Positions 19,155 to 23,331 of a DNA stretch of 41,164 bases are shown here, in pieces. The translations under genes were made by a program, and so were the position numbers. Origin of the DNA: a virus; the IMG/VR virus record IMGVR_UViG_3300025133_000253, positions 1 to 41,164 of that record; one strand, written 5' to 3'. Positions within the stretch are counted from its first letter, which is position 1; every line of letters starts with the position of its first letter. The notes under the pieces are model-generated. The model was not told where the DNA came from and ran no database searches. It saw nothing but the letters and a program-made list of their open reading frames with translations.

Positions 19155-19814
19155 TTATTTTGCCATTAGAGACATAGATGGGAAATGGAATATTACTTCC
19201 TTTTCAAATGGTTGCTTGGTTACTATCTTTGCAACAGCATTAGTAATGAAGGATCCAGCCATATTACTACAATAGCTTGTAGCTTTAGCAGTACATGGTT
19301 CTTCGCTTCCTTCATGATCATCATACCAGCATTTTTTATACTTGGTTACAGTTGGCTTCTTAAAAGCATACTGCTGATATGTTTGTGCTCCCATACGACC
19401 ATCTATGAGTATAACTGGTTTAAGTCTTTTTACACTACATGCTATTTCAACTGCTTGTAGCCTACTTGACATATTATCAAATCCTAAGACAATAATATCA
19501 TTTCCATAAGATGCATATTGACTACTATCTACAAATTTGTCTCTTACAGACAGTACAATCGGATCCTGACATATTTCAGACAAGTATTCAGTCAATACAT
19601 CTACCTTATATTTGCCTATATCAGGTGCAGTATACTGACTGACGCCAATATTTTCAAGAGATACCTTATCATAATCATAAAGTGTAAACTTTTCTGCACC
19701 AGATCGGGCTAATTGGGTGGCTGCGGAACTGCCAATAGCTCCGCAACCAAGTATGTGGAAATGAAATTTATCAAAGTTGTTAAATATGCCTTCAAACCTT
19801 GATATTCTGCTCAT
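19155..19814 (-). CDS. E1/ThiF-like ubiquitin-like-protein activating enzyme
   Basis: About 219 residues from the preferred start. The Rossmann core is clear: FHILGCGAIGSSAATQLA (ATP loop), TLYDYDKVSLENIG (the DxDxVxxxN region; the usual downstream R-Q is V-S-Q) and the GFDNMSSR block. LIDGRMGAQTY follows. A Cys-rich catalytic region, EEPCTAKATSYC, lies near residues 172-182. E1 enzymes adenylate the C-terminal glycine of a ubiquitin-like protein, and many then hold it on Cys. I chose the ATG at 19814 because GGAG lies upstream; an ATG at 19826 would add four residues. The gene overlaps the JAMM gene. The ubiquitin-like partner lies 2.5 kb upstream in the same operon. No thiamine or molybdopterin genes are nearby. 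Confidence 0.88.
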   Translation of the reverse strand: MSRISRFEGIFNNFDKFHFHILGCGAIGSSAATQLARSGAEKFTLYDYDKVSLENIGVSQYTAPDIGKYKVDVLTEYLSEICQDPIVLSVRDKFVDSSQYASYGNDIIVLGFDNMSSRLQAVEIACSVKRLKPVILIDGRMGAQTYQQYAFKKPTVTKYKKCWYDDHEGSEEPCTAKATSYCSNMAGSFITNAVAKIVTKQPFEKEVIFHFPSMSLMAK

Positions 19815-20691
19815 TTTCCTCTCCATAATCTACGAAATTAGTAGGATTATATCCACTATAAATCCCAGAATTGAGTTGAAGTTCATTTTCTGTATATTCC
19901 TTAATACTAAAACTTGCTTTCTTTAGTTTAAGTATTTTATTCCAGTTTTTAACTTCCTTCAACCATTCCTTGAAGGTGAATTGTCCTTCTGTGTAAAGAT
20001 CATTCCATTCAGCTACAATTTCAAGACTAGAATCATAGATTTGATCTCCAGAATATCCATGTTTATGACCATAACTAGATTGATAGCCATTTCCATAATA
20101 ATTATGTATATAACTATCTCTATCCCAATCTCTTGTATTGTAAAGAGATGTTTGTTTTCCATTCTTTTTGTAATTAGTCATCACTGTAACTGGTTTATTA
20201 CAAAGTTTAGAAACAGAATCTCTTATAGCTTTTGGAACAGTTCTTGCTTTTGCATCTAATATATTCAGATCTATATCTTCATGAGCTATAATTGGATTCC
20301 ATACACAAACTCTAAATTTATATTCACCACGAATATTAACTACAAGAAATGCAGACCAATCATCACTGGAATATTCTTTCATAGTATTTGTATCAGTTCC
20401 AGACCAGAATGCTGACATACTAGCATGTGAATGCCACCAGACAAATCTAACATCTTTACCATGTTTCATACAGGCTTTTACATAATAATCAGCTACAGCA
20501 GCTTTATCCATTTCTGTGGTACCGCCAGTTACATTCTGTTCTAATATTTCAGGTGCAGATAGTATTATATCTCCATCTTTATCCTTTTCGGCTATTAGAA
20601 AACCGCCAATCTCAGATTTGAATTCATCATAGGATGCTTGGGCATAATCTATGACTTTCTTCCAATCCTTTTGAGTAATGTAAAACTCCAT
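19792..20691 (-). CDS. JAB/JAMM metalloprotease (deubiquitinase-like)
   Basis: 299 residues. Residues 1-150 form a JAB domain: Glu27 in SEIGGFL and the zinc motif H87-S-H89, seven residues, S97-x-x-D100 (WWHSHASMSAFWSGTD). This is the complete JAMM signature of proteases that cleave after the diglycine of ubiquitin-like proteins. A Tyr/Gly/His-rich segment follows (about 195-220), then a helical tail. The likely job is to trim the four residues after GG in the ubiquitin-like protein encoded upstream, to remove it from targets, or both. The gene overlaps the E1 gene, so the two enzymes should be made together. Tail-tip NlpC/JAB proteins of phages are an alternative, but the E1 neighbour argues against that. 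Confidence 0.88.
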   Translation of the reverse strand: MEFYITQKDWKKVIDYAQASYDEFKSEIGGFLIAEKDKDGDIILSAPEILEQNVTGGTTEMDKAAVADYYVKACMKHGKDVRFVWWHSHASMSAFWSGTDTNTMKEYSSDDWSAFLVVNIRGEYKFRVCVWNPIIAHEDIDLNILDAKARTVPKAIRDSVSKLCNKPVTVMTNYKKNGKQTSLYNTRDWDRDSYIHNYYGNGYQSSYGHKHGYSGDQIYDSSLEIVAEWNDLYTEGQFTFKEWLKEVKNWNKILKLKKASFSIKEYTENELQLNSGIYSGYNPTNFVDYGEENEQNIKV

Positions 20692-22254: not shown

Positions 22255-22316
22255 AGTCGGGGGTTTATCAACGAATATAGTCTATTTTGACTTTTTCAAA
22301 TAATATTCCCCCGACT
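22255..22316 (-). terminator. Inverted repeat between the ubiquitin-like gene and the 510-aa gene
   Basis: Arms AGTCGGGGG/CCCCCGACT (22255-22263 with 22308-22316) enclose a 44-base loop that itself contains AGTC/GACT. It sits in the 131-base gap after the ubiquitin-like gene. It may be an attenuator making the small ubiquitin-like protein more abundant than the downstream enzymes. The rest of the gap (22317-22365) shows nothing clear. Confidence 0.5.
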
Positions 22317-22365
22317 ATTGTGGTTAACGGAACCGATCAATAATTCCCGCTATTAAAGAAAAGAG

Positions 22366-22578
22366 TTAAGACTTTGTCTCTCCACCTTTCTTATTAGTTT
22401 TAACAGCAGCAACCCGATCATCATCACGAAGTTCGTGAGAATCATTGGCTACAACACGGTTCACGTTAATAGCCTCAGTACTTAAACCAAGTTCTGTACG
22501 AAGTCCACCAACTGTGGTAGATTCTACATTGGTTTCAGTAAAGCTGGCTGTATCATTGCACAAAAGTATATTTGGCAT
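22366..22578 (-). CDS. Ubiquitin-like (ThiS/MoaD-type beta-grasp) protein with near-terminal diglycine
   Basis: 70 residues. The order strand (NILLCND), helix (TVGGLRTELGL, 22-32), strand (INVNRVVA, 37-44), the turn ELRDDDRVAAVK (49-60) and then KKGGETKS matches the ThiS/MoaD beta-grasp pattern, in which the last strand follows a D-D-D-R-V or DGD-x-V turn and ends in GG. The diglycine is at residues 65-66 with four residues after it. A JAMM protease would have to trim it before an E1 could activate it, and both enzymes are encoded in the same operon. The start has a perfect AGGAGG Shine-Dalgarno, among the strongest in the window. This fits a stoichiometric modifier. Confidence 0.78.
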   Translation of the reverse strand: MPNILLCNDTASFTETNVESTTVGGLRTELGLSTEAINVNRVVANDSHELRDDDRVAAVKTNKKGGETKS

Positions 22579-22590
22579 TGATGTACCTCC

Positions 22591-23331
22591 TTATTTGTAG
22601 TTAAATACTGTATTGATTCTTTTTCTTTCCTTAACACAGGAAACTAAGACATCAGTAGGTATGAAACTATAGATTGCATTTTTAACTTCAGACGGATTTC
22701 CAACATTAAGCATATAATACACAAGTTCTCTCATATGAGCCTTTTGCAGCATTTTGCTATATGTTTTCTTATCCTTCTCAAGTTCTTTACGGTAAATACC
22801 CATTGCAAATGAATATGTAGATGCAGATCCACGTTTTGCTAGAATCCGCTTAAACAATCCATGTGCAAATGTTTTTCCAGCCCAATCTTCAAGATTTACT
22901 ATCCTTGAAAGAAATGTGGGTGGAACTGAATGACCATTCATATATCTCCAGAGATATTGATAGCCATCTATGGCTTTACGTTTACTGTTGGTAATAACAA
23001 ATGCATCACCATTACCTTCAATGGATGGTGCTATATACGCAGGTATTTGGGTGTACCCGAGTTTAGTGCATGTGGTTGTTCTTCTATGACCATCAGTAAT
23101 AACATAGTCCTTTGTGATTGTGATTGGCTTTTGTAATCCATGCTTATCTATTGAATGCATTAAAGCTGTCAGTTCCCTTTTAGAGCGTGGATCAGCCCAA
23201 TCTATCCGCATTGGTGGTTGACCAGGATTATTGGTTAATTGATCAATACTTACAACTATAGGTTTCCCTAATTGACCAACTGTTTTACCGTTTTTATTTT
23301 TGATAGTACTTACAGGTCTTCCTTGTACCAT
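22591..23331 (-). CDS. ParB/Srx-like protein of the ubiquitin-like cassette
   Basis: 246 residues. Residues 26-102 form a ParB/sulfiredoxin-type domain: VVSIDQLTNNPGQPP, then ELTALMHSIDKHGLQKPITI, then the phosphate-binding block VITDGHRRTTTCTKLGYTQIP. The DGHRR box replaces the GERR box of chromosomal ParB, as in ParB-like nucleases and PRTRC ParB proteins. Such domains bind or hydrolyse nucleotides. The C-terminal half is helical and basic (GYQYLWRYMNG, LFKRILAKRG) and may bind DNA. It lies directly before the ubiquitin-like gene. ParB-related plus ThiF-related genes are the namesakes of the PRTRC cassette. CTCC (GGAG on the minus strand) precedes the ATG. Confidence 0.83.
   Translation of the reverse strand: MVQGRPVSTIKNKNGKTVGQLGKPIVVSIDQLTNNPGQPPMRIDWADPRSKRELTALMHSIDKHGLQKPITITKDYVITDGHRRTTTCTKLGYTQIPAYIAPSIEGNGDAFVITNSKRKAIDGYQYLWRYMNGHSVPPTFLSRIVNLEDWAGKTFAHGLFKRILAKRGSASTYSFAMGIYRKELEKDKKTYSKMLQKAHMRELVYYMLNVGNPSEVKNAIYSFIPTDVLVSCVKERKRINTVFNYK

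Follow-up and report, generated by a model that had tools for sequence, protein, structure and literature searches.

A probable phage-borne ubiquitin-like tagging cassette with a precursor tag, located beside replication genes

Complete pathways that tag proteins with a ubiquitin-like protein (Ubl) are known in bacteria, where they reside on chromosomes or on mobile elements, and some of them are antiviral. Operon type 6d of Iyer et al. (2006) combines a Ubl with a JAB, an E1 and an E2-like protein (PMC1779556). Bil comprises a Ubl, an E2, a JAMM and an E1, and there the Ubl has its C-terminal glycine exposed by the JAMM (PMC11354881, a review).

The window analysed here, i.e. the whole stretch of 41,164 bases of a virus record, carries on its minus strand a cassette with candidates for the same four components (Table 1). 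As judged from sequences and predicted structures, the smallest of these genes quite probably encodes the tag of a phage-borne Ubl conjugation-deconjugation pathway in which the tag is made as a precursor.

Table 1. Features of the cassette and of its immediate surroundings in the window
Feature	Positions	Strand	Basis
E1/ThiF-like adenylating enzyme; start 19814 better than 19826	19155..19814	-	ThiF match, invariant residues
JAMM/JAB metalloprotease, 299 aa; E27, H87, H89, S97, D100	19792..20691	-	Prok-JAB match, motif conservation
E2-like protein, 510 aa; HP 295-296, C333 candidate catalytic Cys (codon 21238-21236), C404/C422/C426/C434	20702..22234	-	alignment, AF2, hhalign
Large mRNA hairpin (inverted repeat), Ubl/E2-like intergenic	22255..22316	-	folding z-score, compensatory pairs
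Smaller hairpin, upstream of the large one	22325..22352	-	RNA folding
Ubl precursor, 70 aa, ending NKKGG/ETKS (slash: putative cleavage site)	22366..22578	-	ORF translation, beta-grasp model, Foldseek, GG 33/33
ETKS codons, residues 67-70, putatively cleaved tail	22369..22380	-	translation; variable among homologues
Diglycine G65-G66 codons, invariant	22381..22386	-	translation and family alignment
AGGAGG Shine-Dalgarno of Ubl, overlaps ParB-like stop codon	22586..22591	-	sequence, anti-SD energy
ParB-N-like protein, just upstream of Ubl	22591..23331	-	ParB_N 6e-6

The Ubl precursor, its tail and its mRNA

The initial annotation described a Ubl with a diglycine at residues 65-66 followed by ETKS, and translation of the minus strand bore this out. 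Structure prediction, which it proposed as a check, returned a ubiquitin-like beta-grasp domain with a mean pLDDT of 89.8, falling to 56 over the last ten residues; translation and model delimited a single 66-residue domain ahead of the tail. Foldseek matched the model to TtuB, Caldiarchaeum ubiquitin, MoaD, SUMO, NEDD8 and ubiquitin (probabilities 0.99-1.00), TtuB and MoaD being among the closest folds; E-values were modest, as is to be expected of a domain this short. Within Pfam, ThiS alone was matched recurrently by the family (26 of 33 members with E no higher than 1; lowest value 1.7e-5), the Ubl of the window lying below the cut-off (17.3 versus 22.5 bits). A Ubl profile gave a weak MoaD match among PDB sequences, while PADLOC and the PRTRC protein models returned no match for the Ubl of the window. 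As modelled, the 70-residue protein is a beta-grasp ubiquitin-like domain.

Homologues were gathered by scanning contigs of viruses with proteins as well as alignments, which matched several dozen distinct contigs, and by running a Ubl profile over the ORFs of these contigs, which picked out small proteins adjoining the other cassette genes. The resulting family consisted of 33 distinct full-length sequences, including that of the window, and formed 15 clusters at 70 % identity. Its alignment, also suggested at the outset, displayed the expected combination of an invariant diglycine and a tail variable in both sequence and length. G65 and G66 were the only invariant columns (33/33), K63 being nearly invariant, and by this alignment the conservation of the diglycine exceeds chance. 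It was followed by no residue in six sequences, one in ten, two in four, three in eight, four in three, five in one and 117 in one. Tails shared no common motif, several of them starting or finishing with cysteine (GGC, GGCQ, GGSSC), and one of the 70 % clusters held both states, the tail being absent in one of L027 and L028 and reading KIVVK in the other. A diglycine that is kept and a tail that is not form the pattern predicted for a precursor whose diglycine must be exposed. The longest extension belonged to locus L053 (2288-2878), where about 117 extra residues past the diglycine gave the Ubl the appearance of a fusion-type precursor.

The perfect AGGAGG, located 7 nt ahead of the Ubl ATG and initially rated the best ribosome-binding site, indeed formed the strongest anti-SD duplex of the 19 window genes tested (-13.6 kcal/mol), followed by that of the ParB-like gene (-12.2). 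In 14 of 29 homologous cassettes, the best site among the four genes was that of the Ubl (25 % expected by chance; binomial P 0.006, the loci being related and not independent). The inverted repeat reported 3' of the gene is real as well. Its 9-bp arms (AGTCGGGGG/CCCCCGACT) lie in an intergenic stretch whose RNA folded at -36.5 kcal/mol, with a z-score of -4.15 against dinucleotide shuffles and a better energy than all 200 of them. Two compensatory pairs separated the window from L003, a comparison of only two sequences for which the shuffle control is uninformative, and similar hairpins in a second group (L015, L016, L018, L073 and L074) displayed four covarying pairs. The smaller hairpin was invariant in L003 and hence offered no covariation evidence. 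An intrinsic terminator was considered and rejected, since the repeat was followed by no U tract and was not called as a terminator; the window as a whole gave no Rfam or tRNA hits. Between the Ubl gene and the next one, the repeat gives the mRNA a conserved hairpin rather than a terminator. This hairpin might shield the end of the Ubl mRNA, which would fit the suggestion that the Ubl is the most abundant product without showing its abundance.

Partner proteins and genome setting

Ubl, E2-like protein, JAMM and E1 were all present in every locus whose cassette was uncut by a contig end, a count that leaves out the more distant JAMM-E1 loci L056-L065. Gene order was Ubl-E2like-JAMM-E1, or E2like-JAMM-E1-Ubl in five contigs (L029, L031, L034, L035 and L040). 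The JAMM that had been annotated as a neighbour of the Ubl was thus found, with an intact metal motif, in the same cassette of every complete homologous locus. It matched Prok-JAB above the Pfam cut-off (4e-6), and E27, H87, H89, S97 and D100 were kept in essentially all aligned homologues; the HxHx7SxxD motif was intact in all six members with a tailless Ubl. In L089 (3979-5584), a stretch that includes an ORF for a LAGLIDADG endonuclease interrupts the JAMM gene at the WWH-SH metal motif; Rfam detected no intron at this place.

The E1 had ThiF as its best Pfam match (1e-22). Residues D53, K74, D117 and C178, numbered from the start at 19826, were invariant (47/47 homologues), which is consistent with a predicted nucleotide site and a conserved cysteine. 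The inner ATG (19814) is preceded by GGAGAGG and homologue L005 begins there, making it the more likely start. The protein displayed neither the usual NxxRQ arginine (SQ here) nor a separate Cys domain, and it matched CBASS E1-E2 profiles in PADLOC. CxxC zinc pairs are usual in ThiF and MoeB; the sequence of the window E1 contains no CxxC.

The 510-aa protein received no name from Pfam, NCBIfam, PHROGs or PADLOC, nor did its 31 relatives from Pfam; the Pfam E2 models Prok-E2 and UQ_con matched none of the 32 family members, and the PRTRC protein models did not match the window protein. Its E2-like character emerged from motif, topology and profile comparison. C333 was present in 36 of 36 homologues, most of which displayed HP(F/Y)(I/V) before it and xG after it, i.e. 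HP(F/Y)(I/V)..CxG. In the AF2 model, which has a mean pLDDT of 79 and reaches 85-93 over most of the E2 region, a helix (183-201), a four-strand meander (209-288), HP295, C333 and a further helix (349-361) follow each other in the order of the E2 topology. When compared by hhalign with E2-like proteins adjoining JAMM/E1 in cellular genomes and other phages, the family aligned its HPF..C.G with their HPHV..CLG (probability 90.4, E 1.4e-6). The score was 58, whereas none of 30 column shuffles exceeded 18 and the reversed alignment scored 14; the JAMM and E1 alignments, serving as controls, gave probabilities below 1. One protein of the comparison set reached UQ_con across the HP..C motif at a sub-threshold E of 0.058.

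Fold comparison was consistent with this reading. The structural aligner VIA ranked BRE first and second (6gvw_C, Z 5.9; 6h3c_C, Z 4.9) and THOC5 twelfth (Z 4.4), both of which we take to hold UEV and RWD domains of E2 fold; Z values under 6 prove little by themselves. Foldseek returned no E2-type match to the model in the PDB at E below 1e-3. With the whole model it listed kinases at low probability, largely through the N-terminal part, and these were not taken as homology; family sequence profiles retrieved only coiled-coil or unrelated PDB chains. Six unnamed viral proteins in BFVD matched with E-values between 1e-19 and 1e-13; the fold is therefore a recurrent, though unannotated, one among viruses. 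A search of 282 genomes with Prok-E2_D and Prok-E2_B for a bridging set gave nothing, its controls being silent too. Past the E2 region, helices carry C404, C422, C426 and C434 (Cx17Cx3Cx7C), which are nearly invariant and which we would guess to form a metal (zinc) or Fe-S site. Altogether, the 510-aa protein appears to be E2-like with good, if not final, confidence, and with this identity a matured Ubl would become part of a whole conjugation pathway. Two further architectures were encountered. In a 191-kb phage (L061, 4806-5861), the E2-like protein (HPHIDSGGRVCFG) has a C-terminal part that is rich in cysteines, resembles RING or IBR and matched nothing in Pfam; the protein may be a fusion of E2 and E3. 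In L056 (4342-5985), the E2-like protein begins with a pentapeptide-repeat domain and adjoins a Ubl ending in KGGRK, a JAMM and an E1.

The ParB-like gene accompanied the cassette in only three of 35 related loci and, by this distribution, is an optional neighbour outside the conserved cassette. Downstream of the window E1, and on the same strand, lie Sak4-like, SSB-like and primase-helicase genes, "SSB-like" being our own reading of a DDVPF end in a protein that matched no family. Among the 35 loci, a relative of the primase-helicase was found downstream on the same strand in 27, the SSB-like gene in 20 and Sak4 in 11; these are lower bounds, as loci end at different distances. L007 displayed an ERF recombinase in that region. 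Most cassettes were thus located just upstream of phage recombination or primase genes. The terminase did not indicate a host (best identity about 25 %).

More distant versions were also detected. Phage loci L056, L061 and L062 had different E2-like and Ubl-like genes beside their JAMM-E1 pair, and two large phages (L063, 3420-3740; L065, 3936-4265) encoded, together with an E1 relative, a small protein ending in GGEI or GGAAQE, perhaps a tailed Ubl. Two cultured phages, crAss001 (gp79-gp76; L091, 1286-5696) and Flavobacterium phage FpV4 (L090, 1595-5606), have a comparable row of genes: a Ubl-like domain prolonged by a long extension comes first, followed by a putative E2-like protein with HSH..CxG, a JAMM and finally a ThiF. 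Existing annotations of these genes go no further than hypothetical, metalloprotease and thiamine biosynthesis. Their E1 proteins were about 28-31 % identical; a link between the E2-like family and their putative E2 found no support in hhalign. Since the extension starts past KSGA or KSGG, a strict terminal diglycine is not universal. A scan of bacterial and archaeal genomes yielded 14 relatives, all divergent and many of them from short contigs of MAGs; several were accompanied by an E2-like protein, a JAMM, an E1 or a Ubl ending in GG, and they look like operons of the known bacterial kind.

Proposed pathway and rival readings

Translation, which is probably strong, would yield a Ubl precursor that ends in a short tail. 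By analogy with the respective families, the adjacent JAMM would cut this tail off after Gly66, and the ThiF-fold E1 would adenylate the exposed diglycine and take over the Ubl on Cys178 as a thioester. The E2-like protein would receive it on Cys333 and transfer it to a lysine of the target, and the Cys-rich module at the C-terminus of the E2-like protein perhaps guides the choice of target. The same JAMM may later strip the tag from targets.

Given the predicted fold, the invariant diglycine, the variable tail and a JAMM in the same cassette, trimming of this precursor by the JAMM is the most likely reading. Tail removal alone cannot explain why the JAMM is conserved, as the six tailless members keep it intact; a second role in removing the tag from targets (deconjugation) is probable and would account for its presence there. 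A different division of labour, in which the JAMM deconjugates only and the tail is either removed by another protease or is functionless, the Ubl being used unmatured, would suit those six homologues and the lack of a common tail motif. It is nevertheless decidedly improbable: 27 of 33 members are tailed while the diglycine is invariant, as expected if it must be exposed, the 117-residue extension of one homologue would need a dedicated cut, and maturation by the JAMM of the same cassette has been described for BilC and BilA (PMC11354881).

The main mechanistic rival to conjugation is sulfur transfer. The Ubl would then be a carrier of the ThiS/MoaD, CysO or QbsE type, trimmed by the JAMM and adenylated at its diglycine by the E1, and its thiocarboxylate would donate sulfur to a tRNA, a nucleotide or a cofactor. 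The ThiS matches of the Ubl family, the ThiF match of the E1 and the closeness of TtuB and MoaD among the folds all agree with such a role, as do the tails that start or finish with cysteine; in QbsE, moreover, a JAMM removes a dipeptide after the diglycine. We consider it quite improbable, because every whole cassette includes an E2-like protein with an invariant cysteine, the E1 has no CxxC zinc pairs, and non-systematic inspection of some neighbours showed no rhodanese or sulfurtransferase.

As to the purpose of a conjugation pathway, the position beside recombinase, SSB-like and primase-helicase genes suggests that the cassette is probably expressed together with the replication genes, and it might act on replication-associated proteins of phage or host. 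Its stable place favours a replication-linked role. That it is instead a captured defence cassette of Bil or Bub type, directed against competing phages or countering tagging by the host, appears unlikely; this concerns purpose and not mechanism, and overlaps with the preferred explanation. The component list is the same as in bacterial ubiquitin operons, some of which are antiviral, and PADLOC related the E1 to CBASS; on the other hand, neither the E2-like protein nor the Ubl was recognised by PADLOC, and the cassette keeps its position adjoining replication genes across divergent phages rather than occupying a variable cargo spot.

More tentatively, and short of an even chance, we propose that a group of tailed phages carries in its replication module a complete Ubl pathway of its own, made of a precursor Ubl, a JAMM, an E1 and an E2 from a new family that includes a Cys-rich module, that it thereby tags replication proteins of phage or host reversibly during infection, and that crAss-like and Flavobacterium phages carry distant versions. 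If so, phages themselves would use protein tagging, by means of a conserved, self-contained cassette beside their replication genes. The compact set of four genes, its E2-like family with no Pfam model and the cultured distant relatives crAss001 and FpV4 provide material for tests, and a series of tails from none to 117 residues within one family makes the proposed separate roles of the JAMM, maturation and deconjugation, directly testable.

Comparison with described systems

With type 6d, the cassette shares the four components, a stand-alone small Ubl with a C-terminal glycine, and separate genes for JAB, E1 and E2-like protein; type 6d differs by an alpha-helical protein, a JAB-N domain and an E2 without the classical His (PMC1779556). 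In contrast, the phage cassette displays the HP motif and its own E2-like family with a four-Cys module, and no helical partner was seen. Type 6d presumably corresponds to PRTRC, and membership in PRTRC was rejected, scores being far below cut-off for PRTRC_ThiF (27.5 versus 144.75 bits) and PRTRC_A (12.8 versus 101.8). As to the ParB-related gene of PRTRC cassettes, the window has a ParB-like gene next to its cassette, a neighbour seen in only three of the 35 related loci.

Bil (BilABCD) likewise unites Ubl, E2-like protein, JAMM and E1, but in that system two Ubl domains are found in BilA, a CEHH motif in BilB and a Cys domain in BilD; in the phage genomes, the Ubl is single, the E1 minimal and the E2-like family a different one. 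Bub is also a bacterial ubiquitin-like conjugation operon (PMC13373217); it was reported from bacterial genomes together with stress regulators. Phage lambda tail genes TAPI and TAPK also encode a Ubl and a JAB peptidase together (PMC1779556), but they are tail assembly genes with no E1 or E2, whereas the present cassette includes both an E1 and an E2-like gene and lies in the replication region. In crAss001 and FpV4, a Ubl-like N-terminus, a putative E2-like protein, a JAMM and a ThiF likewise adjoin replication genes or a uracil-DNA glycosylase, but the Ubl continues into the long extension and has no terminal diglycine.

Measured against prokaryotic Ubl conjugation operons as a whole (Iyer 6a-6e, Bil, Bub), the predicted Ubl, E1 and JAMM agree with what defines the kind. 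For the E2 fold, topology, the invariant cysteine and the hhalign result speak in favour, against the missing Pfam E2 match and the weak fold Z. No report of a full phage-encoded cassette was found in the literature searched, which did not cover several important papers, so that absence is not established. The component list is that of type 6d, and maturation of the Ubl by the JAMM of the same operon is described for Bil. The present cassette differs in that tailed phages carry it, in its E2-like family, in having one Ubl whose tail varies, and in where it lies.
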